Positions 9,705-37,897 of a DNA stretch of 64,000 nt are shown here, in pieces (the stretch's first letter is position 1; each line of letters begins with the position of its first letter). Position numbers and translations under genes: made by a program. Under the pieces are notes generated by a model. That model was not told the DNA's origin. It did not search any database and worked only from the letters and a program-made list of their open reading frames with translations. Location of the stretch: NCBI RefSeq assembly GCF_000797495.1, contig NZ_JTGN01000001.1:838683-902682 (forward strand), given 5' to 3'. The stretch is from Robinsoniella peoriensis (GTDB taxonomy: Bacteria > Bacillota > Clostridia > Lachnospirales > Lachnospiraceae).

Positions 9705-12116
9705 TTAGTATACAAAATCAATCAGCCACATTTTAATCTTTTTAAACAAATTTTTCTTTTTCAAAATAAGATGCAATGTCTCATCTTTCAGCTGCTCTGC
9801 CATTTCCCTCTGCTCCTTTGAAACATCCAGATCACCATAAACTGCTCCCTGTACCACATCCAGTGTCTCCCTGAATTTTTCTCCAAAATCTTCAGAATAT
9901 TTTTCTGAAAGAATTCCTACATAACCATAATGGGATCCCTTTGCTTTCGGGGTCTTATCATAGTGAAGCAAAAATAAAATATAAGCATAGAGATGCTTTA
10001 CCGCCAACCTATTATCAGCTACAAGGAAACTCTTTTTACGATTTGCAAGTTTCCTTCTGTGATAAAGTACATAGATCAGCAATGATAATATTAAAATGAC
10101 AGCCAGAGCAACTGCGGCAGTCACTAACATCTTTTTCACGGGTACTTCTGCCTTTTTGCCTGTCTTCTTTTTCTTTAATTCTTTTTCCTCATCTTTTATC
10201 TTTTCTGATTTGCCTGAGTCATCTGACTGACCTCCGTCTCCCGTAAGTGCCGGAGCCTGTGAAAATTCCGGTCTTTCCATAATGCCCAGATAAGGTGGTG
10301 TTGCTTCCATAGGTACCCAGCCAATGCCATCCTGATAGACTTCTACCCAGGCATGGGCATTTTCTCCGGTAATTTCGATTGGTTCATAAGCCTCCACACC
10401 TTTTACGTCCTCCGGTGTCACAAGATAACCTTCCACATATCTTGCAGGAATACCCAGATACCGGTACATCAGAACTGCAGCTGTTGCATAGTGGACGGAA
10501 TATCCTTTTTTCTGGCTCTGAAGAAACCATTGCAAAAAATCATAATTTCCTGAAAAGGTATCCACTTCTTCCGAATATTCTATATTCTTGTCCAGATATC
10601 CCATAATCAAAGCATTTGCTTCTTCATAGGGATAATGAGCACTCCCTGATGCCTCTTCTATTTTCAGAAGACTTTTCAGAATCTGTTTCTGGTGGTCCGG
10701 TATATCCAGGTAATTCCGGTAGATAAAGGCATTATAGTAACTTTCATTTCCCGCATACTCAGCTGCAGTATCACTATTCCTGATTTCATAAAACTTTGAT
10801 GCCAGTGTAGGATACCGTTTCACCAGATTACTGTTTGCAGTATAGTGATACAGGCGGTTTCCAAACAATCCTTGTGACTTTAAGGAAACATCCCCCATAT
10901 TTTTGCTCCCATCTATCTTACCGGGATCTGTCTTAAGTTCATAGGGGGTATAGATGTATTTGCTGTTTGCATTTACATTCTGCACCGTAATCTCCACAGT
11001 CTCATCATCCGTTTTCCCATTTTCCAGCTGATTCACCAGGGAGAGCTGGTTTAATCCATTAAAATTTGTTTCGTGAAGCCAGTAAAACAGGTCCTTCGCT
11101 TCATAATAGACGGATTTTTCTAACTCTTTCCAGCCATTCTGGGTGTAAGTACTTCCGACAAACCCGCGCAAATACAAGGATTCCGGCTTATCCATCAGCA
11201 CTTCCAGTGCAGTTGTATCCTTCAATGTCAAATTTCCCAGTCCCTTAAATTGTCCCTGTGTAAAAGAATTGGTCTTCTCTTTTTCATAGCGTATATTGGA
11301 AGTTGTTTTTGCTATTCCTTCTTTTAACGCCTCTGCTAATCCTGCTTTCGTGTAGCTATTTACAGATACTGTACTGACCATCAATCCCAGGAGCGCTGCA
11401 AAAGCAACCGTTAGTATTCCTGATACCTGCAGGATTGCCAAATATTTACCATTGCCAAATGCCCTCCGGTTTTTCCTGCCATGTACAAAAAAACTCAATA
11501 GAACCATTACGGACGCCAGCATCATTATCACAGGTATGATACCATAGTTTTCACCAGTACATAATTCCAGCAGCAATAATGGTAATACACTTATGCATAA
11601 GAGTACTATACTGCGCAGCCGGATAATTACGGTTACAACTGAAGCAGACAGCAGACAGCTCCATATCCAGAACAGACAAAGGGATATTCCATGTAATTCC
11701 TCAGCTATACCAATATCATAAACTTTCAGGAAAATTCCAAAGTTTCTGCCGACTACCTGCCCAATCCGGTTCATGGTCAGCAGAAAGCCGTCCAGCATCA
11801 ACTCCTGGCGTATTAAGAGAAACAGGATTCCAACAGCAGCCAGAAGAGCCGTACCTGCCTTCACATAACGGCTGTACTTTCCCTGTAACTGCAGCAGTAT
11901 CAGGATCAGCAGTCCAAAAGCTGCCGAATAGTATACCTCCACCGGCAGATCAAGAAGATAAATAAAAGACAAAGAGATGCCAAGATAAAGCAAAAAAGCC
12001 GGAAGTAATCCTGCCAGCAAGTGAAACAAACCTTCTCTGCCACTATTTTTCCGATTTTCCAATTGAATTGTAATTTGAGATTTTTTCTTAACTGTGTTTC
12101 GATTTCCATTTTTCAT
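9705..12116 (-). CDS. TgpA-like transglutaminase-domain membrane protein with Cys-to-Ser change
   Basis: An 803-residue membrane protein: about seven hydrophobic segments in the first 250 residues, an extracellular stretch, a transglutaminase-like core around residues 500-610, then one more helix near 675 and a cytosolic tail. In active members the core reads GYCxHFA; here it reads GYSVHYA, so the catalytic Cys is Ser540. The partner His588 (ENAHAWVEVY) and acidic Glu604 (GWVPMEATP) remain. Enzyme activity is therefore doubtful and binding is more likely. The gene closes a MoxR-DUF58-transglutaminase trio at the end of the B12-linked operon. The trio is common in bacteria and of unclear function. 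Confidence 0.85.
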   Translation of the reverse strand: MKNGNRNTVKKKSQITIQLENRKNSGREGLFHLLAGLLPAFLLYLGISLSFIYLLDLPVEVYYSAAFGLLILILLQLQGKYSRYVKAGTALLAAVGILFLLIRQELMLDGFLLTMNRIGQVVGRNFGIFLKVYDIGIAEELHGISLCLFWIWSCLLSASVVTVIIRLRSIVLLCISVLPLLLLELCTGENYGIIPVIMMLASVMVLLSFFVHGRKNRRAFGNGKYLAILQVSGILTVAFAALLGLMVSTVSVNSYTKAGLAEALKEGIAKTTSNIRYEKEKTNSFTQGQFKGLGNLTLKDTTALEVLMDKPESLYLRGFVGSTYTQNGWKELEKSVYYEAKDLFYWLHETNFNGLNQLSLVNQLENGKTDDETVEITVQNVNANSKYIYTPYELKTDPGKIDGSKNMGDVSLKSQGLFGNRLYHYTANSNLVKRYPTLASKFYEIRNSDTAAEYAGNESYYNAFIYRNYLDIPDHQKQILKSLLKIEEASGSAHYPYEEANALIMGYLDKNIEYSEEVDTFSGNYDFLQWFLQSQKKGYSVHYATAAVLMYRYLGIPARYVEGYLVTPEDVKGVEAYEPIEITGENAHAWVEVYQDGIGWVPMEATPPYLGIMERPEFSQAPALTGDGGQSDDSGKSEKIKDEEKELKKKKTGKKAEVPVKKMLVTAAVALAVILILSLLIYVLYHRRKLANRKKSFLVADNRLAVKHLYAYILFLLHYDKTPKAKGSHYGYVGILSEKYSEDFGEKFRETLDVVQGAVYGDLDVSKEQREMAEQLKDETLHLILKKKNLFKKIKMWLIDFVY

Positions 12117-12129
12117 ATCATTGTATCCC

Positions 12130-13299
12130 CTATATTACCAACTGGCATAATTCTTCTGTCATTGTCTCCGGTGTAAATACTACCAGCGAATGGTCCAAAT
12201 TCCCGGATACTTCCTGCTTATTTATCCGGCACTGCAAAACAGCCACAGAACAAATCTCACTTAAGCATTTCAGATCTTCTCCACCATCTGAGGCTGTTAT
12301 ATAGATCACATGGGCATAGGGATTGTCAATACAGTCCTCTAAATAATAATGGAGGCTGGTCTCTCCCAGCTCTTTATTCTGAATTCCGAGAAATCCTGCT
12401 GTCATCTCTGCTAACTCATCCACCGATGTAACATCCTGTCGGCGGAAGAGCCCCTTTTCCTGATCATACCACCCTAAAGTATGAAGATGCCCATTCTGAA
12501 TCAGAGACTGGGATACTGATAAAAAGGATTCCATCATTGCATCGCGAAGCGCGGCTTTTTCTTTCTTCTTTTCAAAAGATGCCGTTTCATATAACAGAAT
12601 TATGGAATTTTCTACAGGAAGGCTGAGTTCCTTTACATATAACCCATCCAGCTTGCCGGATACCTTCCAGTGGATATTCTTCGGACTGTCTCCCGCCTGA
12701 TATTCCCGCAGGCCAAATATTTCACTTGGATCGTCCCCTCTTTTGCTGTCTGAATAAGTAATGCTGTCCCAATTCGCACTCAGGCTGTCGCTGATTTGTA
12801 CATTTGCAGGAAATATGTCGGGTAATATTACAATATGTCCATGTTGATCCGGCTTCTCCCGCGCAGTAAAAATCCCAAGCCAGTCATATAAAGTTACCTT
12901 TTCAATGGTCACCTGTACATTTCCGCAATATCTGCTTTTCAGATTCCAGTTCAGCTTTTCCGTTTTTCCTGCCGGTATGGCGCAATAAATCTCCTGGGTC
13001 TGAGTCTCTCCGGTCAGCTGATTAAAAAACTGAAGGTAGCAGCACACTTTTAGCACAGGGAAAATACTCTGATTTTGAATGCTGAGTTCCCCTTGTACCT
13101 GCTTTCCCTTGCCTGCCATGGATACCGCTTGAAATGAATACGACAATTTGTGACGGACAGTCAGAATTGCCGCCCCGCAGACAGGGAGAATTGCCACAGA
13201 TGCAATCAGGAGAAAAAATGCCCAGTATGAGTCTGAATAGATGTACAGGATTACCGTCCCCAACAGCCATACTCCATAGCATATTCTTGTCTTTAACAT
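12130..13299 (-). CDS. DUF58 protein (MoxR partner)
   Basis: A 389-residue protein with two N-terminal hydrophobic helices (residues ~8-50), a beta-rich middle and the DUF58 signature SEIFGLREYQAGDSPKNIHW followed by KLDGLYVKEL near residues 195-225. The C-terminal part resembles a von Willebrand A fold without a clear MIDAS. DUF58 proteins work with MoxR AAA+ ATPases and transglutaminase-like membrane proteins, the two genes flanking it. Gaps of 13 bases on each side show one operon. The role in this locus is unknown; remodelling of the surface proteins or transporter made upstream is one possibility. Confidence 0.85.
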   Translation of the reverse strand: MLKTRICYGVWLLGTVILYIYSDSYWAFFLLIASVAILPVCGAAILTVRHKLSYSFQAVSMAGKGKQVQGELSIQNQSIFPVLKVCCYLQFFNQLTGETQTQEIYCAIPAGKTEKLNWNLKSRYCGNVQVTIEKVTLYDWLGIFTAREKPDQHGHIVILPDIFPANVQISDSLSANWDSITYSDSKRGDDPSEIFGLREYQAGDSPKNIHWKVSGKLDGLYVKELSLPVENSIILLYETASFEKKKEKAALRDAMMESFLSVSQSLIQNGHLHTLGWYDQEKGLFRRQDVTSVDELAEMTAGFLGIQNKELGETSLHYYLEDCIDNPYAHVIYITASDGGEDLKCLSEICSVAVLQCRINKQEVSGNLDHSLVVFTPETMTEELCQLVI

Positions 13300-13312
13300 A
13301 AAGTCCTCCTGG

Positions 13313-14242
13313 TTATGCGATTTCCGGTACAGAAACGGTCTTAGTAATTTCTTCCATAATAGACATGGCAGATACTCCGGTTACCTTTGCCTTGGGATGG
13401 AGTATCACACGATGGCTGCTGACGGAGGGGAAAATACCGATGACATCTTCTGGGGTCACATAACCACGTCCGGCTATATAGGCAGATGCTTTCGCCATAT
13501 TATTGACCGCGTAGGCACCACGGGGACTTACGCCCAGCTGAATATATTCATGGCTTCTGGTCGCTTCTGCAAGCCTTGTTATATAACGCAGTATCTCATC
13601 TTTTACCTTGACCCTGGACACTTCCATCTGCATCTCTTCCAAATCGGCCTTGTTAATCACTGCTTTGATTGTATCCAGCGGCTGGATTTCCTGACGGTCC
13701 TTTAAGATATTGACCTGACTCTCAAAATCCGGATATCCCATTTCCAGTTTTACCATAAAACGGTCTAACTGGGACTGGGGAAGCAGCTGTGTACCGGCGG
13801 AACCAAAGGGGTTCTGGGTGGAGATTACAACAAAGGGTTTTGGAACCTCATAGGTATTTCCGTCAACAGTAACATTTCCTTCCTCCATAACTTCCAGAAG
13901 TGCAGCCTGGGTCTTACTGGAGGTACGGTTGATCTCATCTGCCAGCAGCAAGTTACACATAACTGCTCCGGGCTTATAAACAAACTCACCGCTTTTTTTA
14001 TCATATACCGTATATCCTACAACATCGGACGGAATAACATCAGGGGTAAACTGGATTCTCTTGTAATCCAGTCCCAGTGTTTTGCTGATTGCAAGTGCCA
14101 GTGTAGTCTTGCCCACTCCTGGTATATCCTCCAGTAAAATATGTCCCTTTGCCAGAATTGCCATCAGCACTTTTTGAATAACTTCCTCTTTTCCTACGAT
14201 AACCTTTTGTATTTCCTGAACTAACTGTTCTGTATGCTTCAT
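13313..14242 (-). CDS. MoxR-family AAA+ ATPase
   Basis: A 309-residue AAA+ chaperone-like ATPase of the MoxR type. The Walker A is EDIPGVGKTTLA (residues ~38-50), Walker B LLLADEINR, sensor 1 STQNPF, and an arginine-rich lid with LGVSPRGA near residue 250. MoxR proteins act on partner proteins with VWA or DUF58 domains, and such a gene lies 13 bases downstream. A GGAGAGGT ribosome binding site precedes the ATG. It follows the ECF S-component gene by 26 bases and so is probably on the same mRNA as the B12 uptake genes, an unusual combination. Confidence 0.92.
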   Translation of the reverse strand: MKHTEQLVQEIQKVIVGKEEVIQKVLMAILAKGHILLEDIPGVGKTTLALAISKTLGLDYKRIQFTPDVIPSDVVGYTVYDKKSGEFVYKPGAVMCNLLLADEINRTSSKTQAALLEVMEEGNVTVDGNTYEVPKPFVVISTQNPFGSAGTQLLPQSQLDRFMVKLEMGYPDFESQVNILKDRQEIQPLDTIKAVINKADLEEMQMEVSRVKVKDEILRYITRLAEATRSHEYIQLGVSPRGAYAVNNMAKASAYIAGRGYVTPEDVIGIFPSVSSHRVILHPKAKVTGVSAMSIMEEITKTVSVPEIA

Positions 14243-14268
14243 GTATGTATACCTCTCCTTCCTGACCT

Positions 14269-14955
14269 TTAAAATATTCTATGTTTGATATTAATTCTCT
14301 TTAATTTTCTTCCGATTGGACCGATTCCCAGCATCAGAAAAACCACATTGGATATGGCATACTCGATGCTTACCGGAAGTGCGATTGCCTGTACCGTCAG
14401 ATATCTCGCCAGACTGAAGCTTCCGTCAAATGAAAGCACCGTCCATATGTCCATAATGGCTGAATATCCAAATCCCGCCAGGAACCCGTATACTGCCAAA
14501 ATTCCTCTGTTCTTCAAAATTTTCTGCATCACCGGCAGCCCCGCAATCAGCCCCAGGCTTCCCCAGGCAAGCATCTGAAAAGGCGTCCAGGGCCCCTGCC
14601 CATAAAACATATTTGAAATAATAGCTGACAGCGATCCAATTAAAAATCCGGATTCCGAACCCATATAGATAGCAGCGATCACCACAATCGCTGTTACCGG
14701 TTTAAAACCGGGCAACACCGCAAAAATCAATCTTCCCACAACGGATATCGCCACCATTACTGCCAGGACTACCATTCGGCGTATGCTGCCTTCCTTTTTT
14801 TCATATGCCATATAAAACGGTATGCAGGCAAGAAATGCAATCAGTATTGAGATCAGATTATACCTTCGGTCCTGAAACATACGCACACCGAAAACAATTA
14901 CCCCAAAAGCTGCCAGTATCAGCAGGACATTTATAGTTATCCGCTTTTTACTCAT
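14269..14955 (-). CDS. ECF transporter S component (putative cobalamin type)
   Basis: A 228-residue membrane protein with six or seven hydrophobic helices, the substrate-binding subunit of an energy-coupling-factor importer. The region from about residue 60 (VVLAVMVAISVVGRLIF, then GFKPVTAIVVIAAIYMG) is typical for S components. The start at 14955 overlaps the ATPase stop as ATGA and has GGAGG seven bases upstream. The substrate is not readable from sequence. Cobalamin or a corrinoid precursor is inferred from the riboswitch at the head of the operon and the transcobalamin-like neighbours. A dedicated T/A module in the same operon makes this a group I ECF system. Confidence 0.82.
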   Translation of the reverse strand: MSKKRITINVLLILAAFGVIVFGVRMFQDRRYNLISILIAFLACIPFYMAYEKKEGSIRRMVVLAVMVAISVVGRLIFAVLPGFKPVTAIVVIAAIYMGSESGFLIGSLSAIISNMFYGQGPWTPFQMLAWGSLGLIAGLPVMQKILKNRGILAVYGFLAGFGYSAIMDIWTVLSFDGSFSLARYLTVQAIALPVSIEYAISNVVFLMLGIGPIGRKLKRINIKHRIF

Positions 14956-16661
14956 ACCTGCTTCCTCCCGGTTGTCCTGCACATAGCGATAACATCCTCA
15001 CAGGTAACCACATCCCTGTACATATGCCTTGCAATCCGGTTTGCTGCCGTGGTATAAAAACTGTTATTGCAGAAAAAATTCTTTGGAAGATCAATAGAGG
15101 TTACTTCTTTGTCAAAAAACATACCGCACCTGTCCGATGCCTCTGCTGCAAATTCCACATCATGAGTTACCATCAGTATGGTTATCCCATTTTTCTTTAA
15201 ATCTCTCATAATTTCCAGTAACCGATTCTTCGAAGATGCGTCAATTCCCTTGGTAGGCTCATCCAGCAGCAAAATTTTAGGTTTTAACAACAGCATTTTC
15301 CCGATGGCTGCTTTCTGCTGTTCTCCGCCGCTTAAATCATAGGGGTGCTTGGGAAGAAGGTGTTCAATTTCTAACATCTTGGCCGTCTGCTCAATCATCC
15401 CACTCAATTCTTCCTTATCATAACCCATTACTTTCCCCATTTCCTCATAATCTTCCCATACACTTTCCTTTAAAAATACCGTCTGGGGATTCTGAGGCAG
15501 TGATGCCAGAATCTGTCGGTACAATTCATTTCCTTTATACGCTTTCTGTTTCTTACCAAAAATTTTGATTTTTCCTTTATATGCATGGTTTACATGAGAG
15601 ATCACACTGAGCAGTGTGGTTTTCCCGGAACCATTGCTTCCCAAAATGCTAACGATCTCCCCTTTATATAATTCCAGGCTGACACCCTCCAGGATATCCG
15701 GCAGCTCCCGTTCATAGCGAAACCAGACGTCTTTCATGGACAGTACTATTTCCTGCTTCAGCCCTTGCTGCGTGAATTCATGATCCCTGTGAATGGATTC
15801 GCTCTTCTGATCCAGTTCTGGTTCCTCCTTGTACCAGGTACTTAAAAACTGGCGCCCCTCTCTTACCGTAAGCGGACAGGCACAATCCACATCCAGCCCG
15901 TTATAGATCCGTACTGCACTGGGCAGTCCAAGCATCATTTTATGGTTTGCTTTAATTTCTTTTAATTTTTTTCCTGCTTCCCTGGGATTCTCCCACAACA
16001 GCAGCTTACCCTTTTCCATAATCCCAACTTTATCCGCAGCCGGGAAAACATCTTCCAGGCGGTGCTCCGTCAATATAATCGTGGTTCCAAGCTCCCGGTT
16101 CAGCTTTACAAGGGTAGCGATAAAATCAGATGATGCAATGGGATCCAGCTGGGAAGTGGGCTCATCCAGAATCAGCAGTCTGGGCTGCATTGCCATAATA
16201 GATGCCAGATTCAGCAACTGCTTCTGCCCTCCGGAAAGCTCAGAAGTATTTCTGCGAAACCAGCCGTCTATGCCAAAAAAACAAGCCATTTCTCCCACTC
16301 TTCTGCGAATAATCTGATTATCAAGCCCCATATTTTCCAGACCAAACGCAAGCTCATGCCACACTTTATCCATCACGATCTGGTTTTCCGGATTCTGCAT
16401 AACATATCCGATATCGCAGGCACTAACACGGTCTGTTAATTCCTTCTGCCTTACCCCCAGATAACGCACTTCTCCGTCTTTCTCCCCATGGGGTGCAAGC
16501 TCTCTTTTTAATAATCGAAGCAATGTGGTTTTACCACAGCCGGATTCCCCGCACAGAACAATAAACTCTCCCTCTTCTACCGAAAAGCTCACATGATCCA
16601 GTGCACTTGCCTCCTGTTCCGGGTATGTAAAACTTAAATTCTCGACCTTAAGTATTTCCAT
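14952..16661 (-). CDS. ECF transporter double ATPase (fused EcfA/EcfA')
   Basis: A 569-residue protein with two complete ATPase halves. The first has CGESGCGKTTLL and LILDEPTSQLD with signature LSGGQKQ; the second has LGSNGSGKTTLL, LSGGEQQK and LLLDEPTKGID. It energises uptake together with EcfT and the S component. I chose ATG at 16661 because AAGGAG lies just upstream and the family N-terminus MEILKVENLSFTYP starts there. An ATG at 16730 has no such site. The gene overlaps EcfT by 28 bases and the S component by four, so the three subunits are coupled. Both halves keep all motifs. Confidence 0.92.
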   Translation of the reverse strand: MEILKVENLSFTYPEQEASALDHVSFSVEEGEFIVLCGESGCGKTTLLRLLKRELAPHGEKDGEVRYLGVRQKELTDRVSACDIGYVMQNPENQIVMDKVWHELAFGLENMGLDNQIIRRRVGEMACFFGIDGWFRRNTSELSGGQKQLLNLASIMAMQPRLLILDEPTSQLDPIASSDFIATLVKLNRELGTTIILTEHRLEDVFPAADKVGIMEKGKLLLWENPREAGKKLKEIKANHKMMLGLPSAVRIYNGLDVDCACPLTVREGRQFLSTWYKEEPELDQKSESIHRDHEFTQQGLKQEIVLSMKDVWFRYERELPDILEGVSLELYKGEIVSILGSNGSGKTTLLSVISHVNHAYKGKIKIFGKKQKAYKGNELYRQILASLPQNPQTVFLKESVWEDYEEMGKVMGYDKEELSGMIEQTAKMLEIEHLLPKHPYDLSGGEQQKAAIGKMLLLKPKILLLDEPTKGIDASSKNRLLEIMRDLKKNGITILMVTHDVEFAAEASDRCGMFFDKEVTSIDLPKNFFCNNSFYTTAANRIARHMYRDVVTCEDVIAMCRTTGRKQV

Positions 16662-17515
16662 TGTATTTTCTCCTTCAATTCCAGTAATCCGGGAAGTATC
16701 ATAAATAATAAAACGACAGCATACCGCCAAATATCTCCGGCTTTCGTTCCAATCCCGGAGACAACCGGGTAGTAGTAAAAATCAAGTTTACCGGCAAAAT
16801 AATTTCCGCCTATATAAAACATCATAATCCCAATCGCTGTAATTAAAATAACATCTGCCTTCCGAAACCGGAAAAGAGAAAAATTCTTTCTCCCTGGCAG
16901 CCCGTATCCTCGCGCTTTCATTGCATCGGCAGTTTCAATAGAGTTTTCAAGAGACCAGGACAGCAGGCTGTCAAATACCCTCATAGAACTACCCAGCTTG
17001 TCAAACTTACTGTCCCTGGCATACAGCCCCATTGCCTTCTGTGCCTGGTTAATTTTTTTGATCTGTACTTTAAAGAGTGGAATAAAGCGCAGCGCCATAG
17101 ACAGCACCAGCGACAATTTCGGAATCGTTTTGCCAAACAGATACAAAAACTTATCCGATGTCATAATGACGTTTATACATTTACACCAGAACATTACCCC
17201 CACAATCATAACGGCGATGGCGCCTCCATACATAATCGCTTCCAGGGTAACCGGATTATCGTTCATGAAAAATAAAATTGTCTCTCCATTATGCGAAAAC
17301 AGGGGATTGGTGATTGCCAGCAGAAGAAACAGGAAAAAATAGAATACCAGGTTGCGCGCCACAATACGGGCGGAATGCAGCATGGAAAAAAAGAGAATTG
17401 AACCAAACAGCGTACACAGTAAAATCACCGGATGCGCAGTAAACATGGTAAACAAAATAACACATACATAATATAAAAATAATACAATCGGATGGTATTT
17501 TTCAAAACCGCTCAT
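16634..17515 (-). CDS. ECF transporter transmembrane coupling protein EcfT
   Basis: A 293-residue membrane protein with about five hydrophobic segments and the cytosolic coupling helices. The motif ADAMKARGYG, near residue 200, is the Ala-Arg-Gly coupling motif that contacts the ATPases. It starts with ATG after an AAGGAG site, 19 bases after the small DUF4430 gene. As the first of the three ECF genes it lies directly downstream of the membrane-anchored DUF4430 and alpha/alpha proteins, consistent with those proteins delivering ligand to this importer. Confidence 0.9.
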   Translation of the reverse strand: MSGFEKYHPIVLFLYYVCVILFTMFTAHPVILLCTLFGSILFFSMLHSARIVARNLVFYFFLFLLLAITNPLFSHNGETILFFMNDNPVTLEAIMYGGAIAVMIVGVMFWCKCINVIMTSDKFLYLFGKTIPKLSLVLSMALRFIPLFKVQIKKINQAQKAMGLYARDSKFDKLGSSMRVFDSLLSWSLENSIETADAMKARGYGLPGRKNFSLFRFRKADVILITAIGIMMFYIGGNYFAGKLDFYYYPVVSGIGTKAGDIWRYAVVLLFMILPGLLELKEKIQWKYLRSRI

Positions 17516-17534
17516 GTCTTTCTCCTTCGCTTAC

Positions 17535-18122
17535 TCATTCTTCTGTCTCAGTAGCTTTGCTGTCATTTTGCGTATCGAAGCTTCCTCCAATATCCCGTCC
17601 AAGGTCACAGGTATAAACAAATTCGATTATATCCTTATCCTTTGGTTTATAACGGCTGCAACCGTAATCCGGAAATGCTCCGTTTACCCGGTACATCCAC
17701 CCGCTCAGAGGACCGCAGGAATATTCATACAGAAAATTTATCCCCTGAATGTAGGCACTTCCGTAAACGTTATCCTGTGCCCCCTGATATTCCATATGAA
17801 TTTTTTCATGGCGCGTAGCACGGTTTAAAATATCAAAAACGGTGTCCTTCGGACGCAGTACATATTTTGTCGGTGCTAAGATTACACCGTCTGCCGGAAC
17901 GTATTTTTCATCCTGTAGTTCCGGTTTAAGCTGATCCCAGTTATCCAGGATTGTATCGCAACGGATGCTTAATGTAACAGTCTGGGAATCTTCTGTGATA
18001 TCGTCCACATGAGTGAGGTAATAATCTTCCACAGACTGGAACTTTGTGCCTTTAAACAGAACGATGATAATGATAGCCGCAAAGGCAAGTATCAGTAAAT
18101 CTTTTTTCATTTGTGTACCCAT
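17535..18122 (-). CDS. Membrane-anchored DUF4430 (transcobalamin beta-domain-like) protein
   Basis: A 195-residue protein: a short N-terminal membrane anchor (residues ~8-25, no clear cleavage site) and one extracytoplasmic DUF4430 domain over most of the rest. The signature is SGWMYRVNGAFPDYGCSRY, then KDKDIIEFVYTCDLGRDIGG. DUF4430 corresponds to the small beta-rich C-terminal domain of transcobalamin and intrinsic factor, which caps the corrinoid. This is the minimal version, 19 bases before ecfT, so it is the best candidate for the subunit that hands ligand to the importer. The start could also be the ATG at 18110. A corrinoid ligand is inference. Confidence 0.82.
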   Translation of the reverse strand: MGTQMKKDLLILAFAAIIIIVLFKGTKFQSVEDYYLTHVDDITEDSQTVTLSIRCDTILDNWDQLKPELQDEKYVPADGVILAPTKYVLRPKDTVFDILNRATRHEKIHMEYQGAQDNVYGSAYIQGINFLYEYSCGPLSGWMYRVNGAFPDYGCSRYKPKDKDIIEFVYTCDLGRDIGGSFDTQNDSKATETEE

Positions 18123-20282: not shown

Positions 20283-20287
20283 GATGA

Positions 20288-22459: not shown

Positions 22460-22473
22460 CTTTATACCTCCTT

Positions 22474-26651: not shown

Positions 26652-26688
26652 AACCATCCTCCTTCATCCCGCGAATAAGTTTAAATAC

Positions 26689-29616: not shown

Positions 29617-29661
29617 TTCATTTCCTCCTGAATTATGTATCATATTTTTTTACACAAAAAT

Positions 29662-29695: not shown

Positions 29696-29756
29696 ATATT
29701 ATAATCAAATCGGATTCCCATCCTCTTTATTCCATCATTCTAATGCACCAAACATT

Positions 29757-30003
29757 AAATCGCGGTATAAAAACAAATCTGCTTCCTCATCCCGGAAATA
29801 CAGCAATCTGTTTTTACGGCAGGTATCCTGACTCCGCTTCGACCTTAGAAACGCCTTCTCAGCAGCTATCCGTGCAGCGCCAATGGCATATTGTTTCCTC
29901 GTCCACGTTACAGTAGAGGTGACTGTGCCGGAATTTAACCGGCTTCCCTATTATCACTTTCATGGCAGATTCTGAAAAAATGCATGAAAAATGACCGCAA
30001 TTA
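29757..30003 (-). ncRNA. Cobalamin riboswitch 1
   Basis: The minus strand carries the conserved aptamer core: a P1 strand GCGGTCA, ACAGTCACCTCTACTGTAA, GCCATTGG and the B12 box AGTCAGGATACCTGCCG (29817-29834), closed by a complementary ACCGC. A terminator follows. It controls the 11-gene run from 29616 to 9705, the strongest evidence that the run concerns cobalamin. Confidence 0.93.
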
Positions 30004-30022
30004 ATATTTTGTTTATGAAATA

Positions 30023-30051: not shown

Positions 30052-30131
30052 TGAATTTCTTTGGATAATTGGTATCTTTTTTATATTTTACCTCCAAAAC
30101 TATAAAAATATTTTTCTTTTAGCAGCTTCAT

Positions 30132-30614
30132 TTAAGAACATTTCTTATTTAGAAAATCAGCTAATCCATCTATATTTTTATATAGTATTTCATTTTTCTT
30201 AGGCTCCAGTTTCGACACCATGGCTGTTATTTTTTTATCGAAAAATCCCATTTTATGTTGACGAAGTTCACCTCCCATATTTACTGTTTTTTCAGCATGC
30301 TTTCGCAGCGAAGCGGGGAAATTTTTGATGAAGAACCCACTTTCCTGATCAGGTGTTGTACAGCACATAAATAAAATAATATTTTTTGTAAGCAGGCTTT
30401 GTAGATTCTGTTCACAAAAAACTTTTACTTCTTTTTGTATTTTCCCTATGTATATGGATCCGCCGATGATAACCCAGTCATATTGCTGCAAATCGACGGA
30501 TCCGGCTTCTTTTAAATTTATTGTTTTTACTTCCTGGTTCAGTTTATCTTTGAGATAGTTGCTGCAATCCTCTGTACATCCATATTTACTTGCATATAGT
30601 ATCAATATTTTCAT
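30132..30614 (-). CDS. Flavodoxin-domain protein (HemG-like)
   Basis: A 160-residue cytoplasmic protein starting MKILILYASKYGCTEDCS, the FMN phosphate-binding loop of flavodoxins, followed by WVIIGGSIYIGKIQKEV. The C-terminal half (FFDKKITAMVSK) resembles the flavodoxin-like PF12724 group that includes menaquinone-dependent protoporphyrinogen oxidase HemG. It probably transfers electrons; the substrate is unknown. The start at 30614 has GGAG eight bases upstream and is preferred over 30632. It lies between two B12-regulated units but has neither riboswitch in front of it. Corrinoid reduction is a tempting but unsupported role. Confidence 0.75.
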   Translation of the reverse strand: MKILILYASKYGCTEDCSNYLKDKLNQEVKTINLKEAGSVDLQQYDWVIIGGSIYIGKIQKEVKVFCEQNLQSLLTKNIILFMCCTTPDQESGFFIKNFPASLRKHAEKTVNMGGELRQHKMGFFDKKITAMVSKLEPKKNEILYKNIDGLADFLNKKCS

Positions 30615-30779
30615 GCACTTACTCCTATACACTTATTTTTTAGTTGTTGGTTTTTGGTTTTTGCATATACTTAACACTGTTAATTTAATTTATATCGTTA
30701 TCATATCCTATTATTATCTATTTGTCAATAAGGCCTGCAAAAATTTTATTTTGATACTTTTAGTCACTACATACAAAAA

Positions 30780-30866
30780 CTGCACGATCCGAACCGCAGA
30801 GAAAGAATTCAAATATGGACATCACCATAGATTGATTCATCATTTCTCTGCAGCCAGATCGTGCAG
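30780..30866 (-). terminator. Long terminator hairpin of the second surface-protein unit
   Basis: An outer stem of at least 10 bp (30780-30789 with 30857-30866) and an inner 9-bp stem (30796-30804 with 30843-30851) form one long hairpin. On the minus strand it is followed by TTTTTG. It ends the 35964-30908 unit and separates it from the flavodoxin gene. Confidence 0.75.
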
Positions 30867-30907
30867 TCGTATTTTAATTGTTTTAATTGGAATTTCGTGA
30901 CAAAATT

Positions 30908-33900
30908 TTATTTTTTGTTACTATTTATAACTTTCACTCTTACCGTTTTCTTCTTTCCATTTGACGTACGGATAATAATCTTACATTCTCCTTTTTTCTT
31001 TGCCCTTACTACTCCCTTAGAACCTACCGTCGCAACACTAGGATCAGAAGATTTAAATGTAACCTTATCTTTCGCCGTAATTGGTTTAAGTGTTACTGCT
31101 AATTTTGCCTTCTTACCTTTTTTCAGCTCAAGCTTTTTCATATTAACAGAAATAGAGGACACTTTCACCTTGCTTTTCTGTACGGTTACTTTACAGGTTG
31201 CTTTGGCTCCATATTTTGTAGTTACGGTAATTTTCGTATTTCCAGGTTTCTTCGCTGTTACTTTCCCTTTGTCCGATACCACCGCATATTTTTTATTGGA
31301 ACTCTTCCAGGAGACCACTTTATCCCCTGATGCCAATCCAGATACCTTAAGCGTCACCCGCTTTTTTAACTGTAATGGTAATTTTGTTGCATTTAATTTC
31401 ACATTTGCCTTTTTAACAGTAACTTTACAGGCAGCAGACTTACCGCTTCCATCTTGTGCGGATACTGTTATAACAGCAGTTCCTGCAGATTTTGCGGTTA
31501 TTTTTCCATTTGCGTCAACTGTGACTGCCTTTGTATTACTGCTCTTATAGGTTACTGATTTGTTTGCGGCATTGGCTGGTGTCACGGTTGTTTTCAGCAA
31601 TTGTACCTGGTTAGGATACATAGATATGGATGCTGTCTGTAATGTAACTCCTGTAACCTTTACTACTTCCGGCGGTACCGGTTTTGATAAATCAGCCAGA
31701 GTTTTTTCTGCAGCTGTTAAGACACTGTAATTGCTGACATATTTTTTTGCTGCATCTGCAAGAGCTTCATATGCAGCTCTTGCTTTTTCTATTGCCGCTT
31801 TGCTGTCTTTTGTTACCGGACCAATTGCTACAATAAGTTTTTCTACCGGCGCTGCTGCTGCTTTCAGCTCATCTACTGTGACATTTTCAGCGTCAAGTGC
31901 ATCGGAAAGCTGCCAGTAGTTTGGTACATATCTACGTAAAGAATTATCATTTAATTCTTTGAAAGTACTATTATAGGTTTCCATAGCACTATTTAAGGCT
32001 TCGTAATATCCTTCCGTTCCTTTTTTCGCTAATGCATTGTCAATTGTTGCTTTTAAGGTGTTTATAACGGATGTATCCTGGGCTGAGAACTCTGCACGAT
32101 AGTCATATATATAACGCATACCATTCAGATACCGCCAGGCAGCAACTAAACCATAACCTCCCTGATCTGTTGCCATGGAATTATATACTCCGTTAGATGC
32201 CGCAGCATTATCCGGATCATAATCAAAGGTATGGCAGAATCCACCGGACTCTAATTTGTACCGTAAAACACCGTCAATCAGGGTATTTCCATTTTTAATA
32301 AAGCGCTGGTCGGTCAAAGGATCTACTCCCACAGAAATAATAGCAAGCAGTACCTGAGACGTACTTTCCATATTTCGTGTTCCCCAGGATAAGTAATCAC
32401 CCAGATCTGTCTGCAATGTCCCCAATCTGTTCAATGCTTCATCGATTGCTGTACGAACCGTTTTGGTTACAGTCTCACCACTTGCCAGATTTGTGTAAGT
32501 ATATTCCGTATCATCCCAGTAATAGGCAGACAATGCCTGTACTGCCATAGCTGAGATATCAGGATCAGATACCGCTCCCCACAATGCCCATCCGCTGTAG
32601 CTTCCATTTTCACCGTCCTTCAGCTGTCTCTCCAGAATATATTTGATCAGATATTCATCAGAGTATTTCATTTCAGCGGGACGGGTAAAGTCCTGTATAT
32701 TCATTGCTATCAATGCAAAAATCGGTCCGTTAATTCCCTGCCTTGAGGGGTCTACAACAGCATTAAAGGCTCCATCATTGATTAGATTAATTCCATTGCC
32801 ATTATAAGTTCCAAAATCAGTAACATCGCCTCCGATTGCTGCGATTGCAAGTGCAGCACGATGCCATTCTGTCACTTTATTATCATCTAATTTTCCATCG
32901 TTCTCCGCATACCTTTTTTCGATATTTGCTTTCATTGCTTCCATGTAAGCGCTGTAGCCTTCATTATTTTCACCATCTTTATAATTCAGGTTTACGCTTC
33001 CATCGGAATTAACCGTGCCAAAACGTCCCATTGTAAATGCAGCCCAGTCGGACCAGGTTGAACTGGCACTCTTCAGGAATGGCTCGCTTCCCAGTACCAG
33101 GGTACCATCACCATCTCTGTCCCGGCGTGCCTCAAATGTCTGTGTAATCCATCCCGGCAGATTTTCTTCCAGGTGATTCCGTATAAATTCTACGGACACT
33201 GTATATTTCTTTGTTATTCTGCCATCCTTGGATATAACCGTATAAACAACCGGCTTCGTTAAATCCACTTCTTCTTCCGATTTTGGGGAAACTGTGGCAC
33301 CATCACTTAATTTGATGACTGGTTTCAATTTCGTAAGATCCGTATTTTCAGGTACGCTTACAACAATTTTATCATTTGTAATATTCCCTGTTCGACCGTT
33401 AATTGCAAGAGATGAAATATCCGCCAGATATCGTTTTTCTGTTGTTTCTGTGTAATGCTGCCTGATCTCAACGTTATCTTTAAATTCACCATTTTTAAAT
33501 TCAACTTTACCATTTTTGCAGCCATCTGCATCTTCTTTATCCGGTAAGCTGATAATCACATTTCCGGAAAAATAATCGGTATTTGAGATCGTCGTTGCTT
33601 CGGTATAAGTTTTTCCGTTAATGGTAAAGCCTTCGAATTTGTAATAATTATCTGCATTTTGATTGATCTCACCGGACATGCCAAAGTATATACGTTCTAC
33701 GTTGCCTTTTGGCATTTTGCCATTTTTAGCTCCAGCTTCCTCAGGAATAATTCCTGCATCCTCAGGACCGTAGCACCATTTCGCAGATACATTCCATACG
33801 TCGGTACCTGCCTCAAAGGTATAAAACGCACTCCACTGGGCAGTAAAGGTTACGTCATGATCCGGAATCGTATAATCATCACCCGGCTGGTAAGTCTGCG

Positions 33901-35056
33901 TTCCATCATTCCATCCATCAAAGTCATAACCTGCTTTTGTAAATGGATTTTCCGGTATTTTTACCTGGTCGCCTGGTTTCTGGTTTTTTAAAACGATTGG
34001 CGTTCCAGAATCAGCTCCACCTGATTCGAATTTAATATTAGATGTACCGGACTGCGCCCACTCTGCCGTGAAAGTGATACCTCCAAACGGCATGTTGTAT
34101 ACAGACCCCGGCTTATAAACATCTTGACCATCGTACCAACCCAGGAATCGATAACCGTTTAATGTAAAGGTATTTTCAGGTAAAGTAATTTCAACTGCTT
34201 CTTTACTAGTTATTTTTTCTGGTGCTGTTCCAACTGCTCCTTCTCCTCCGGTAAATACGGCATCAAAAACGGCATCGGGGTCTTTTTCAAAGTATGCATT
34301 TAGATGCACATCACGATTAGGCATCTTAAATAACTTTTCCGATGATGTTAAATTCTGTGAAAGCTCTGGATCAACAGGTAAATCTGGTCCCATCGAACCT
34401 GAAGTTGATATATCCCACGTCTTGAAACGATACCCTAAATTGGGTAAAGCCTTTATCGTAACATCTGTATTATAAGGGTTATACCATTTAGTTTCATCTT
34501 CATTCACATACTCTTCACCGGTTATTACTACTGTTCCGCCATTTTTTGGTTCCATATATACATTTCTAACACTATACTGCCTCATTAGATAAAGATCAAA
34601 TGTAACATCATTATCCGGCATTATAAATGAAAAAGTACCATTTGTAATCGCTTCAATCATATTGTTTTTATCAGCTTCTGATAATTCCAGACCTGTCACT
34701 TCTGCACGATTAAATACGTTTTGCGGATAGTTCCTGTATTCAAGCTGTAAATAGTATGTTTCACCAACTTTACAATATTTTGCAGGATCATAAATAACAT
34801 TATGATTACTATCTGATAATGCAAATGCAAAGCTATAGAAGTCCTCATCAGGCTCTACTCCCGATTCGCCGCAATACCCATTAATCGTAACCAATCTGGT
34901 ATCTGCATTAGTTTTTTCACTCATTCTGTCATAATATGACTCACTCTGTATATTCTCTGACTCTTTTACTTGCGCCTGTACATTTATCGGAACCATTGTT
35001 AAGCACATACACATGGACATCAATCCAGCCAGATAACGTTTTGCCTTTTTTATCAT
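30908..35056 (-). CDS. Giant secreted alpha/alpha-toroid protein with InlB repeats and Big_2 tail (second B12 unit)
   Basis: A 1,382-residue exported protein. Signal peptide ~1-28; beta-rich region and InlB-type repeats ~40-420 (FLGWYDGQDVYKPGS, FDGWNDGTQTYQPG); a cadherin-like/DUF5018-like domain ~530-620; alpha/alpha-toroid ~640-1020 with VTEWHRAALAIAAIGGD, DISAMAVQALSAYYWD, STSQVLLAIISVGVDP and RFIKNGNTLIDGVL; one or two helical repeats; then Big_2 and Lys-rich Big_2-like modules to the end. The toroid is very close to that at 18267-20282, including the RFIKNGNT element. It is the second gene after riboswitch 2, 68 bases behind a DUF4430 gene. No catalytic cyclase motif is seen. Confidence 0.82.
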   Translation of the reverse strand: MIKKAKRYLAGLMSMCMCLTMVPINVQAQVKESENIQSESYYDRMSEKTNADTRLVTINGYCGESGVEPDEDFYSFAFALSDSNHNVIYDPAKYCKVGETYYLQLEYRNYPQNVFNRAEVTGLELSEADKNNMIEAITNGTFSFIMPDNDVTFDLYLMRQYSVRNVYMEPKNGGTVVITGEEYVNEDETKWYNPYNTDVTIKALPNLGYRFKTWDISTSGSMGPDLPVDPELSQNLTSSEKLFKMPNRDVHLNAYFEKDPDAVFDAVFTGGEGAVGTAPEKITSKEAVEITLPENTFTLNGYRFLGWYDGQDVYKPGSVYNMPFGGITFTAEWAQSGTSNIKFESGGADSGTPIVLKNQKPGDQVKIPENPFTKAGYDFDGWNDGTQTYQPGDDYTIPDHDVTFTAQWSAFYTFEAGTDVWNVSAKWCYGPEDAGIIPEEAGAKNGKMPKGNVERIYFGMSGEINQNADNYYKFEGFTINGKTYTEATTISNTDYFSGNVIISLPDKEDADGCKNGKVEFKNGEFKDNVEIRQHYTETTEKRYLADISSLAINGRTGNITNDKIVVSVPENTDLTKLKPVIKLSDGATVSPKSEEEVDLTKPVVYTVISKDGRITKKYTVSVEFIRNHLEENLPGWITQTFEARRDRDGDGTLVLGSEPFLKSASSTWSDWAAFTMGRFGTVNSDGSVNLNYKDGENNEGYSAYMEAMKANIEKRYAENDGKLDDNKVTEWHRAALAIAAIGGDVTDFGTYNGNGINLINDGAFNAVVDPSRQGINGPIFALIAMNIQDFTRPAEMKYSDEYLIKYILERQLKDGENGSYSGWALWGAVSDPDISAMAVQALSAYYWDDTEYTYTNLASGETVTKTVRTAIDEALNRLGTLQTDLGDYLSWGTRNMESTSQVLLAIISVGVDPLTDQRFIKNGNTLIDGVLRYKLESGGFCHTFDYDPDNAAASNGVYNSMATDQGGYGLVAAWRYLNGMRYIYDYRAEFSAQDTSVINTLKATIDNALAKKGTEGYYEALNSAMETYNSTFKELNDNSLRRYVPNYWQLSDALDAENVTVDELKAAAAPVEKLIVAIGPVTKDSKAAIEKARAAYEALADAAKKYVSNYSVLTAAEKTLADLSKPVPPEVVKVTGVTLQTASISMYPNQVQLLKTTVTPANAANKSVTYKSSNTKAVTVDANGKITAKSAGTAVITVSAQDGSGKSAACKVTVKKANVKLNATKLPLQLKKRVTLKVSGLASGDKVVSWKSSNKKYAVVSDKGKVTAKKPGNTKITVTTKYGAKATCKVTVQKSKVKVSSISVNMKKLELKKGKKAKLAVTLKPITAKDKVTFKSSDPSVATVGSKGVVRAKKKGECKIIIRTSNGKKKTVRVKVINSNKK

Positions 35057-35124
35057 AACCTACCTCTTTCTAACATGAAGCAAGGCATCCGAAATGGGAT
35101 ACCCTGCTTTCTCACAAATTGTAA

Positions 35125-35964
35125 TTAGAATCCAAATCCAATATCTGCACCATAGTTACAGGTATATTGCCAATTAATTTTTTCTCCGCCTTCCAGATAA
35201 TACTGAGCTGCACCATACATTGGTAAAAACTCTTCTCCACCTTGAGGAATTACTGTATACATCCATCCGCTCATACCTCCGCAGGTAAATTCTCCCAGAG
35301 TATATGCACCTTTAGAAATTTTTGAGATGTAATTATTTTCTGCTCCAGTCAATTGAATCCCAAACCTATTTGCAGCCATTACTAATGCATCCATAACAGT
35401 ATCTCCTGCATTCATAGTAAGTTTAATATAAGAATTCTTATCATTTGAAGGAAGCATAATAGCAGTTGCTGCAGCCTGGAATTCAGTTCCATAATTAAAT
35501 GCATTAATAGTACGAATTCCAATTTCAACAGTAAGTTTTGTTGCATCCACAGTAGCCGTCAATTCATAAGCTCTGGTTTCCCCGCCATATGTAACCGAAA
35601 TTGTAGCTGATGACGCGGACACATCAACGTTATTAAATGTTCTTGTAGTACTTCCTGTAGCGCTTGTCTGACTATCAATGCTGACAGCTGCATCAGAATT
35701 TACACCAGTCAGAACAACTTTTAATTTCTTAAGATCACTTGTAGCTGTTCCAGATGGTAATTTTGCATTATAAGTATAACGTGTTACACCGCCAACGGTT
35801 ACTGTCTTTAATTCTGCTGCTGCACTTTTACCGGATGTAGGCGCTGTTAAAGTAACAGAACCAATCGCCAGGTTATCACTTGCTGCAGATGCTGTAATTG
35901 TGGTCATACCTAAAACTAATGTTAAAGCCAGTACCAACGCGGTCAATTTTTTAAAAATCTTCAT
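35125..35964 (-). CDS. Secreted DUF4430 protein (first gene after riboswitch 2)
   Basis: A 279-residue exported protein. Signal peptide ~1-28 ending SASA; a cadherin-like beta domain with SYIKL-type strands to ~140; DUF4430 ~145-279 with GGMSGWMYTVIPQGG, EKINWQYTCNYGADIG and stop directly after GFGF. It lacks Big_2 modules and any anchor, so it may be released or held by the toroid protein encoded next. AAGGAGG precedes the ATG. It pairs with the toroid gene at 30908-35056 as a beta-alpha set, the same order as in the first operon. A corrinoid role is inferred from the riboswitch and the domain. Confidence 0.84.
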   Translation of the reverse strand: MKIFKKLTALVLALTLVLGMTTITASAASDNLAIGSVTLTAPTSGKSAAAELKTVTVGGVTRYTYNAKLPSGTATSDLKKLKVVLTGVNSDAAVSIDSQTSATGSTTRTFNNVDVSASSATISVTYGGETRAYELTATVDATKLTVEIGIRTINAFNYGTEFQAAATAIMLPSNDKNSYIKLTMNAGDTVMDALVMAANRFGIQLTGAENNYISKISKGAYTLGEFTCGGMSGWMYTVIPQGGEEFLPMYGAAQYYLEGGEKINWQYTCNYGADIGFGF

Positions 35965-36150
35965 AAATCAAATCCTCCTTTTTCATGTCTCTCATTTTCA
36001 TGCTGTTCGGAACCAATCATCGCTATTTCCCCTCCTTTCCGTTCCATTCATCAGCTGTTGCTCCCTTTCTATAGAAATATGGTATCGTTAACCATAGAAA
36101 TGGACTTTTTAACTGTCCAAAAGCTATATAAACCTGAAAATCATTAAAAA

Positions 36151-36180
36151 AAGCCTTCCTGCACTCAGACAGAAAGGCTT
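36151..36180 (-). terminator. Riboswitch 2 expression-platform terminator
   Basis: An 11-bp stem with one mismatch (36170-36180 with 36151-36161), followed on the minus strand by seven T. It is the same AAGCCTTTCTG type of hairpin as at riboswitches 1 and 3. The remaining ~190 bases to the gene show no other structure. Confidence 0.85.
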
Positions 36181-36204
36181 ATTATTCCCCGTATGTAATT
36201 GATT

Positions 36205-36433
36205 GAATTGCGGCATAAAAATAAACCTATTTCCTCAGCCCAGAAATAAATAACTTGCAACACGGCAGGTATCCTGACTTCGCTTCATCCTTAGAAACAC
36301 CTTCTCGATAGTCTCCTATCAATGGTATTTGTCTCTTCGTCCACGTTACAGTAGAGGTGACTGTGCTGGATTCTCACCAGCTTCCCTATTATCACTTTCA
36401 TTGATTACTTAGATGAAAAATGACCGCAATTCC
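36205..36433 (-). ncRNA. Cobalamin riboswitch 2
   Basis: Minus-strand aptamer with the same core elements as riboswitch 1, including the B12 box at 36263-36280 and a closing P1 of AATTGCGG type. It is followed by a terminator and the 35964-30908 pair of surface-protein genes. Confidence 0.93.
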
Positions 36434-36462
36434 ATATTTAATTTTGTGATTTTCTGTAATAC

Positions 36463-36491
36463 ATCATAGCTCATATAAATTTAGTTGTCAA
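36463..36491 (-). promoter_or_regulatory. Promoter of riboswitch 2
   Basis: TTGACA (36486-36491), 17 bases, TATGAT (36463-36468) on the minus strand. The AT-rich stretch from here to 36739 contains nothing else that I can support. Confidence 0.8.
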
Positions 36492-36739
36492 TAGTATACT
36501 GACACTTTATAATAATAAACAATATTTTTTATTAACTACTAATTCTATCTATAATTAATTTGTAAACTCCACAAAAAACATTAAGTAAATATTTATATAA
36601 CAAATAAATGATATAGAGTTATATTTCAAATCATTAAGAACATAGTTCTCCAATATTTTGAATATAATAAGTATTCTATACTATTATACAAGTGTTTTTA
36701 TGTAATATTTTTATACTATTTGTAATTTTTTTACATAAT

Positions 36740-37582
36740 TTAACAGTATTCCCGTGTAAACCCAAATTTATCACAGTATTCATCCATTCTACTACCCCTT
36801 TTACATCGTATAACAGCACTTTTATTAATAATCCAATCCCCAATTTCATCCGGATCATGATGGATCTCCAGTATTTTCAGCCGGTTACATCCATGAAATA
36901 CCCATTTACCGATCTTCTTTAGGGATTCCGGCAATAACACATACTCTAACTGATTGCACTTAAAAAAGGCGCTGTCTTCTAAAACCCTCAGGTTACGGGG
37001 AAGCTTCAGCATCGTAAAGCCCGTCTGATAGAACGCCTCACGACCAATAGATTCTAATGTAACCGGAAAATGTAGTTTTGATAAATTCATACATTTATAA
37101 AACGCTCGTTCTTCAATACGGTTTATTTTACTTGGCAGTATAAGTTTTGTGAGATTCTGACATTGATAAAATGATTCTCTTGGTATGATAAAATTCACCC
37201 TGCTTGGTTCAAATGTGACTGACTCCAGACGCTTACACTCTTTAAAAGCTCCATCTCTGATTGACTTTGTACTAGCCGGAAAATATATTTCCTTTAATTT
37301 TGAGCATCCGCAAAATGCTTCTTCCTGAACCACTTCCAGATTTCCAAAGCTGACTTTATATAATGAAGTACATCCGTAAAAGCTTCTTTTCCCGATTTTC
37401 TTTATATTCGGAGAAAGATCTGCCGTTTTCAGACGTATTTTATTACGAAGTGCCTGATCTGAAACTTCATCAAAAATTGTTCCAATACTCAGATTTTTAT
37501 CTGCGCACTGTTTTCCTTCCCGCATGCCAAATACTCGAAAGCCGACATTTCCTCCCTTATAAATAAGTACTTGACTTCCCAT
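36740..37582 (-). CDS. LRR_5 (BspA-like) leucine-rich repeat protein without signal peptide, behind riboswitch 3
   Basis: A 280-residue protein made of about eight BspA/TpLRR-type repeats of ~23 residues (IKKIGKRSFYGCTSLYKVSF, IEERAFYKCMNLSKLHF) at ~45-265 and a Cys-containing end. I chose ATG at 37582 after GGGAG; the longer frame to 37639 runs into the riboswitch terminator. No signal peptide or membrane helix is visible, so it is probably cytoplasmic, unusual for this repeat class. It is the only gene directly under the third cobalamin riboswitch. Function unknown; a scaffold or ligand-response protein is possible. Confidence 0.8.
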   Translation of the reverse strand: MGSQVLIYKGGNVGFRVFGMREGKQCADKNLSIGTIFDEVSDQALRNKIRLKTADLSPNIKKIGKRSFYGCTSLYKVSFGNLEVVQEEAFCGCSKLKEIYFPASTKSIRDGAFKECKRLESVTFEPSRVNFIIPRESFYQCQNLTKLILPSKINRIEERAFYKCMNLSKLHFPVTLESIGREAFYQTGFTMLKLPRNLRVLEDSAFFKCNQLEYVLLPESLKKIGKWVFHGCNRLKILEIHHDPDEIGDWIINKSAVIRCKRGSRMDEYCDKFGFTREYC

Positions 37583-37615
37583 TTTACTCTCCCTTTTCCT
37601 TTGTATCCCTCTTTT

Positions 37616-37654
37616 AAAAAAGAAAGCCCTTCTGTACATAGACTGAAAGGCTTT
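37616..37654 (-). terminator. Riboswitch 3 expression-platform terminator
   Basis: On the minus strand a 13-bp stem with two mismatches (37642-37654 with 37623-37635) is followed by six T. It matches the hairpins of the other two cobalamin leaders. Confidence 0.75.
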
Positions 37655-37669
37655 TCATAACATATAAAT

Positions 37670-37897
37670 TTTTGCACAAAAATAAACTCATTTCCTCATC
37701 CCGGAAATAAAGTAAGCTGGGCATTACGGCAGGTATCCTGACTTCGCTTCATCCTCAGAAACGCCTTCTCAATATTTTTCAATATCAATGGCATCCTGTT
37801 TCTTCGTCCACGTTACAGTAGAGGTGACTGTGCCGGTCTTTCACCGGCTTCCCTTTTAACATTTTATCCCACATCATCTGTGGAATATGACCGCAAT
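37670..37897 (-). ncRNA. Cobalamin riboswitch 3
   Basis: Minus-strand aptamer with ATTGCGGTC at its 5' end, the ACTGTAACGTGGACGA core, and the B12 box at 37727-37744. The 3' border is approximate because the closing P1 strand is less clear than in copies 1 and 2. It precedes the LRR_5 gene. Confidence 0.9.

Follow-up and report, generated by a model that had tools for sequence, protein, structure and literature searches.

Organization of the Cluster

The window analyzed here is a 64,000-nucleotide stretch of the genome of Robinsoniella peoriensis (contig NZ_JTGN01000001.1, positions 838,683 to 902,682), which carries on a single strand a 28-kb cluster of three cobalamin riboswitches (R1, R2, and R3), four DUF4430 genes, three alpha/alpha-toroid genes, and the T, A, and S components of an energy-coupling factor (ECF) importer. 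Between 37910 and 9705, read on the minus strand, the order is R1, a leucine-rich repeat (LRR) gene, R2, D279, T1382, a flavodoxin-like gene, R3, D984, T1371, D723, T675, D195, ECF T, ECF A1A2, ECF S, MoxR, DUF58, and a TgpA-like transglutaminase. The DUF4430 (D) and toroid (T) genes alternate strictly (D-T-D-T-D-T-D). All four DUF4430 matches and all three toroid matches of the 7.39-Mb genome, and three of its eight cobalamin riboswitches, fall inside the cluster. A sequence-only reading of this DNA had put the whole system into one run from 29616 to 9705. The ECF genes do lie there; D279 and T1382 are outside, behind a riboswitch of their own, the flavodoxin and LRR genes intervene, and the run ends with the MoxR-DUF58-transglutaminase trio.

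The Pfam family PF14478 was found above its cut-off in four of the seven proteins, all encoded on the minus strand: D279 (35125-35964; E-value 3.9e-5, 24.5 bits against a cut-off of 23.8), a secreted-type protein with a putative transcobalamin beta-like domain; D984 (26689-29616, the match being in 26689-29643; 1.5e-7), of secreted type with Big_2 repeats; D723 (20288-22459; 1.1e-8), with an N-terminal hydrophobic segment; and D195 (17535-18122; 9.6e-16), with such a segment as well and located beside ECF T. The toroids were nearly invisible to Pfam: Prenyltrans appeared in T675 at 2.8e-5, below cut-off, and not in the other two. Two window-free profiles were made, one of 41 toroids and the other of 39 DUF4430 domains, all from other organisms (E-values for a nominal 5,000 sequences). 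They recovered the four DUF4430 domains (D279, 2.3e-25; D984, 8.8e-33; D723, 4.7e-33; D195, 2.8e-40) and the three toroids, on the same strand: T1382 (30908-35056; toroid at about residues 661-998; 2.4e-76), T1371 (22542-26657; secreted type, toroid at 64-420; 6.8e-76), and T675 (18267-20294; toroid at 67-407; 6.1e-96). The other nine of the 16 window proteins given to these profiles had no match. Pfam also identified InlB-like and Big_2 repeats in T1382 and T1371, so that repeats of either kind occur in three of the seven proteins. T675 ends in a C-terminal hydrophobic anchor (609-641), and its AlphaFold model has a mean predicted local distance difference test (pLDDT) value of 85.8. Among its named relatives, the closest are Robinsoniella proteins at 88-89%; one further relative is at 97%. 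Toroid relatives are annotated in databases as prenyltransferase/squalene oxidase repeat proteins or as terpene cyclases. The catalytic DxDD motif of class II terpene cyclases is absent from the three window toroids. In NCBIfam, no match was found for D195, ECF T, or the DUF58 protein, and T675 and ECF S matched far below cut-off only.

The seven had been described from the sequence as alternating exported or anchored proteins. The alternation holds, and a simple hydropathy rule detected an N-terminal hydrophobic segment of export or anchor type in six of them; T1382 does not reach the threshold, its N terminus looking signal-like by eye. Because the basis is this rule together with sequence appearance, we infer export of the seven proteins.

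The importer consists of a CbiQ-family T component (16634-17515; PF02361, 1.2e-10), a single-chain A1A2 component with two ATPase domains (14952-16730; ABC_tran in two stretches; TIGR04520, 5.5e-104, in two stretches), and a CbrT-like S component (14269-14982; PF12822, 2.8e-9), all on the minus strand. The best Protein Data Bank (PDB) match of the S component was the cobalamin transporter CbrT (6FNP, chain 6fnp_A), with an E-value of 3.6e-11 over 164 residues. With T, A, and S present and S related to CbrT, this is a predicted ECF transporter of the cobalamin type.

Cobalamin Riboswitches

The three cobalamin riboswitches claimed from the sequence were confirmed, all on the minus strand and all aligned end to end to RF00174, with scores far above its gathering score of 31.5. 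R1 (37711-37910; 101.3 bits) lies upstream of the LRR gene, R2 (36247-36443; 101.6 bits) upstream of D279, and R3 (29801-30014; 94.5 bits) before the long same-strand gene run. The hairpin downstream of each aptamer is alike, starting AAGCCTTTC and finishing in a T run. Those of R2 (36180-36151) and R3 (29697-29660) were found by a terminator scan; that of R1 (about 37655-37620) was absent from the scan list and was read directly. The three look, from their sequences, like copies of one terminator-type off-switch. Each aptamer is thus joined to an expression platform, and switching is predicted. Between 29400 and 38400 there were 11 terminator-like sites versus 5.0 (standard deviation [SD] 2.2) in shuffled sequences, and 42 promoter-like sites versus 32.6 (SD 5.5). 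Given the latter count, the single promoter-like sites just upstream of the aptamers, at 37950-37922 (R1), 36491-36463 (R2), and 30051-30023 (R3), carry little meaning.

The clusters behind the other five riboswitches of the genome were sampled (ten proteins scanned). Their genes include CbiM and a CbiO-CbiK fusion, CbiD/CbiF, NuoE/NuoF-like genes, and two BtuC/FecCD-type ATP-binding cassette (ABC) permeases, the permeases below NCBIfam cut-offs. The NuoE/NuoF-like genes lie downstream of a cobalamin riboswitch at L086 (G000:C23).

Conservation in Relatives

With T675 as the query, 43 loci (714,684 bases in total) were obtained from a species-genome collection, mostly from Bacillota, including Kurthia, Paenibacillus, Tetzosporium, Aneurinibacillus, Desulfotruncus, Alkalibaculum, and many gut Clostridia. 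Some stretches are short, and near-duplicates are among them (L015, L016, L019, L020, L021, and L024; L038 and L039), so 43 loci are not 43 independent cases. DUF4430 occurred in 38 loci, with weak matches in L047, L049, L050, L053, and L055 (domain E-values 5e-6 to 3e-3); no match lay within the stretches of the other five (L014, L030, L035, L043, and L052). Toroid proteins stand without a DUF4430 match within the stretch at L035:4916-11671, L043, and L052, the last still having ECF T, A, and S. Cobalamin riboswitches were found in 28 loci (33 matches), every one on the toroid strand and, in 31 cases, 5' of the toroid match, versus fewer than one expected for 714,684 bases at the density of the R. 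peoriensis genome. The remaining 15 loci had no riboswitch match in the stretch examined. ECF components were detected as A in 21 loci, a count that may take in other ABC ATPases (e.g., in L035 and L050), S in 20, and T in 19. Directly before ECF T, these 19 loci had a DUF4430 gene in 11 cases and a toroid gene in 4 more. Some relatives (e.g., L032) fuse toroid and DUF4430 in one chain, in the order of transcobalamin.

The alignments covered 43 of 51 listed DUF4430 domains and 44 of 49 toroid domains from a list that was drawn up after the removal of six loci. In the former, 42 other domains, three of them from the window, were compared with D195: 16 were 38-60% identical to it and 26 were 21-32% identical. 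Ten of the 16 D195-like domains have ECF T as the next feature of the locus. Therefore, a membrane-proximal DUF4430 protein is conserved across these bacteria, and the others are variable.

In the reverse direction, 22 of 56 genomes of the order contained DUF4430, and 9 of the 21 besides R. peoriensis had a riboswitch on the same strand at most 2.3 kb upstream of the DUF4430 match (that of G008 below the gathering score). In G052, a weak riboswitch lay on the opposite strand, 8 kb from DUF4430. A minimal version, with a riboswitch and a small DUF4430 protein and no toroid within the stretch, was observed at L075:1072-1713 (G008, with the low-scoring riboswitch just mentioned) and L076:1267-2227 (G042); the latter also has a small membrane protein that is ECF S-like by eye and has no Pfam match. 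At L027:1255-4923, three cobalamin riboswitches follow one another, the first two each before a small DUF4430 gene of equal length and the third before a larger one, an arrangement that is probably a recent tandem duplication.

Likeness to Transcobalamin

The window toroids have the alpha/alpha-toroid fold of the transcobalamin family. An AlphaFold model of a natural toroid-DUF4430 fusion from a relative (pLDDT 91) was compared with the PDB by Foldseek, and its 15 best matches were transcobalamin, intrinsic factor, and haptocorrin chains, the alignments spanning both domains. The beta domain of this relative's model matched transcobalamin (5no0) with a template-modeling (TM) score of 0.76 by target; the DUF4430 domains of the window are known by sequence. 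The alignments behind the models comprised 68 of 120 listed relatives for the fusion and 45 of 120 for T675. Searched against 177,635 PDB sequences, the DUF4430 profile had the transcobalamin-2 beta domain (5no0) as its best match at a weak E-value of 0.015, followed by an unrelated plant methionine synthase (0.36) and three more transcobalamin sequences (about 0.4). In the profile alignment, the invariant Trp of SGWMY faces a transcobalamin Trp. Single-sequence searches of the PDB sequences with T675 and D195 gave nothing useful.

For the toroid, residues 173-241 of transcobalamin (69 residues) were compared with the toroid profile, scoring 7.9 (human), 7.7 (bovine), and 5.1 bits (rat); the best score was 4.9 among the 2,661 reported of 5,000 shuffles. 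Asp176 was in register with the conserved DVDMTAMA of the toroids, and it is presumably one of two residues, with Asn224, that touch cobalamin. This result is weak because the piece was picked for SVDTAAMA, which we take to be the transcobalamin motif. A VIA-align search with the fusion model had no transcobalamin in its best 50, a null result that excludes nothing because most of the aligned rows are confined to the toroid (residues 21-301).

A Proposed Split Clamp for Corrinoids and Its Alternatives

We propose that the toroid and DUF4430 proteins are split, two-piece transcobalamin-like clamps, predicted to bind corrinoids, which would capture them extracellularly for delivery to the CbrT-like importer. 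We give this interpretation a probability of about 0.78. The analysis established the riboswitches, the domain identities, the gene order and its conservation, the transcobalamin-like model of the relative's fusion, and the similarity of the S component to CbrT; the pairing, the relay, and the hand-over are predictions. At low internal cobalamin, the three terminator-type riboswitches would, judging from aptamer and hairpin, allow read-through. The outer pairs D279/T1382 and D984/T1371 may be secreted or wall-associated and bind corrinoids at a distance, while D723, T675, and D195, with their membrane-anchor-like segments, would make up a station close to the membrane. Each corrinoid would be enclosed by a toroid paired with a DUF4430 domain, much as the two domains of transcobalamin, alpha and beta, enclose their ligand; intrinsic factor, when divided into alpha and beta fragments, can reassemble around cobalamin. 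T675 and D195, the proposed membrane-proximal clamp halves, would then hand the corrinoid to the S component, and import would be driven by ATP. A bolder picture, which we regard as possible and rather doubtful, is a Gram-positive extracellular bucket brigade, in which variable outer clamps scavenge different corrinoids and deliver them to a conserved membrane-proximal pair docking on the ECF importer, the transglutaminase fixes the array in the wall, and the animal B12 carriers descend from a bacterial toroid-DUF4430 fusion.

Several observations weigh against the clamp. The whole-chain TM-scores of the fusion model's matches were low. The toroid by itself is generic and nearer to terpene cyclases, and transcobalamin was absent, at E ≤ 10, from the 54 PDB sequences that a toroid profile of 44 sequences matched, which were cyclases, alpha-2-macroglobulins, complement, prenyltransferases, and similar proteins. 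PF01122 had no match at E ≤ 0.1 in any of the seven proteins in the Pfam scan; of the families that the sequence-only reading had named for a profile search, PF14478 was found in four proteins, PF01122 in none, and a prenyltransferase-like toroid model in one, below threshold. Moreover, 12 of the 22 genomes with DUF4430 had no adjacent riboswitch in a filtered search. Some of these keep DUF4430 beside ECF T and A, with a toroid (L064, L065, and L071) or without one in a short stretch (L070), and in the rest of those inspected (L057, L058, and L067) the surroundings of DUF4430 are different. Because such cases occur, DUF4430 alone is no proof of a link to B12.

The generic toroid could mean that these proteins are exported enzymes, terpene-cyclase-like or glycosidase-like, with DUF4430 as an accessory and the riboswitches reflecting a corrinoid-related metabolic need. 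In sequence and fold, the toroids are indeed nearest to squalene-hopene and drimenyl cyclases and then to GH105-type enzymes, and the database annotations point the same way. However, the DVDDTA of squalene-hopene cyclase reads DVDMTA, DPDVTG, and DPDISA in the window toroids, the last Asp being gone; the N termini of six of the seven proteins are of export or anchor type; and, in the Foldseek matches of the two-domain fusion, 15 cobalamin-carrier chains have better E-values than any cyclase. We consider an enzymatic role quite improbable. The repeats in three of the seven proteins would also suit adhesins, or scaffolds of the wall, that the transglutaminase cross-links and B12 controls and that bind no corrinoid. 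Among the 43 loci, MoxR occurred in 14, DUF58 in 13, and TgpA in 13, with all three together in 12, and toroid and transglutaminase core share one chain at L036:7697-10609. Yet what the loci have in common is toroid plus DUF4430 (38 of 43), and of the 19 loci that have ECF T, just 2 had the trio within the stretch. We consider such scaffolds very improbable. It is unlikely, too, that the ligand is another corrinoid or a B12 fragment (cobinamide, pseudocobalamin, or a lower-ligand nucleoside), with outer pairs differing in specificity. Several divergent pairs in one cluster (the window DUF4430 domains have 22-31% identity to D195), further riboswitch-linked permeases in the genome, and the acceptance of cobinamide by haptocorrin-type carriers, as the available text of PMC4350170 has it, speak for this, against which the closest match of the S component is CbrT, described in the available text of PMC5997447 as cobalamin-specific. 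The clamp remains our preferred interpretation, and extracellular corrinoid capture akin to intrinsic factor, as suggested by the sequence-only reading, is supported, with export and corrinoid binding as predictions.

Other Features of the Locus

Behind R1 and its terminator-like hairpin lies the gene of a BspA-type LRR protein in which no signal peptide is obvious (36740-37582, minus strand; LRR_5, 3.7e-50), whose likely start at 37582 is 3' of the hairpin; with its leader it occupies 36740-37910. Between two clamp units, a flavodoxin-like protein is encoded (30132-30632, minus strand; PF12724, 8.1e-29), which may be a corrinoid reductase or unrelated. The closing trio, also on the minus strand, comprises a MoxR AAA ATPase (13313-14242; PF07726, 1.5e-54), a DUF58 protein (12130-13299; PF01882, 1.2e-6), and the TgpA-like membrane transglutaminase (9705-12116; PF01841, 1.3e-24). 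Divergent from the cluster, at 38882-40048 on the plus strand, is what appears by eye to be a CobW-like GTPase with a His/Cys-rich stretch.

Comparison with Known Systems

In the open-access literature, we found no paper that connects corrinoids with bacterial DUF4430 or with these toroids; subscription journals or preprints may contain such a report. DUF4430 does appear in a B12 context in the accessible part of a paper on vertebrate carriers (PMC4350170). With transcobalamin, intrinsic factor, and haptocorrin (PDB 2BB5, 3KQ4, and 4KKI), the window proteins share an alpha/alpha toroid and, by prediction, a small beta domain. In contrast to the animal carriers, they are bacterial, with toroid and DUF4430 in separate chains and in several pairs; they bear anchor-like segments or wall-type repeats, they stand behind riboswitches and beside an ECF importer, and their toroid is unseen by PF01122. 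One-chain proteins were found in relatives such as L032. Since the window proteins are split, we call the system transcobalamin-like and not a member of the transcobalamin family. A clamp of this type in bacteria, if real, would assign a role to DUF4430 as well as to the exported proteins that currently bear the names terpene cyclase or squalene oxidase repeat. It would mean that related proteins could be used on both sides of a competition for B12 between animals and their microbes, and it would make the evolutionary origin of intrinsic factor directly testable.

ECF-CbrT of Lactobacillus delbrueckii (6FNP) is an ATP-dependent cobalamin importer, and its resemblance to our system lies in the S component, over the 164 residues given above. 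In the window, S has the T and A1A2 genes as its immediate neighbors, and many exported-looking proteins are encoded in a row; the portion of PMC5997447 at hand mentions no such proteins for CbrT. At the cell surface, corrinoid capture by BtuG, BtuH, and BtuJ (DUF4465) of Bacteroidetes offers an analogy, as far as the available text of PMC6143338, PMC8941943, and PMC13398666 goes; these are probably other protein families, and they occur in Gram-negative bacteria; a beta-jellyroll is described in PMC13398666. No DUF4465 or propeller family was among the Pfam matches of the seven proteins at E ≤ 0.1, a result of the Pfam scan only, with no direct comparison made. B12 capture outside the membrane is little known in Gram-positive gut bacteria, according to the available part of PMC8941943. 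Bacteroidetes capture B12 via surface proteins.

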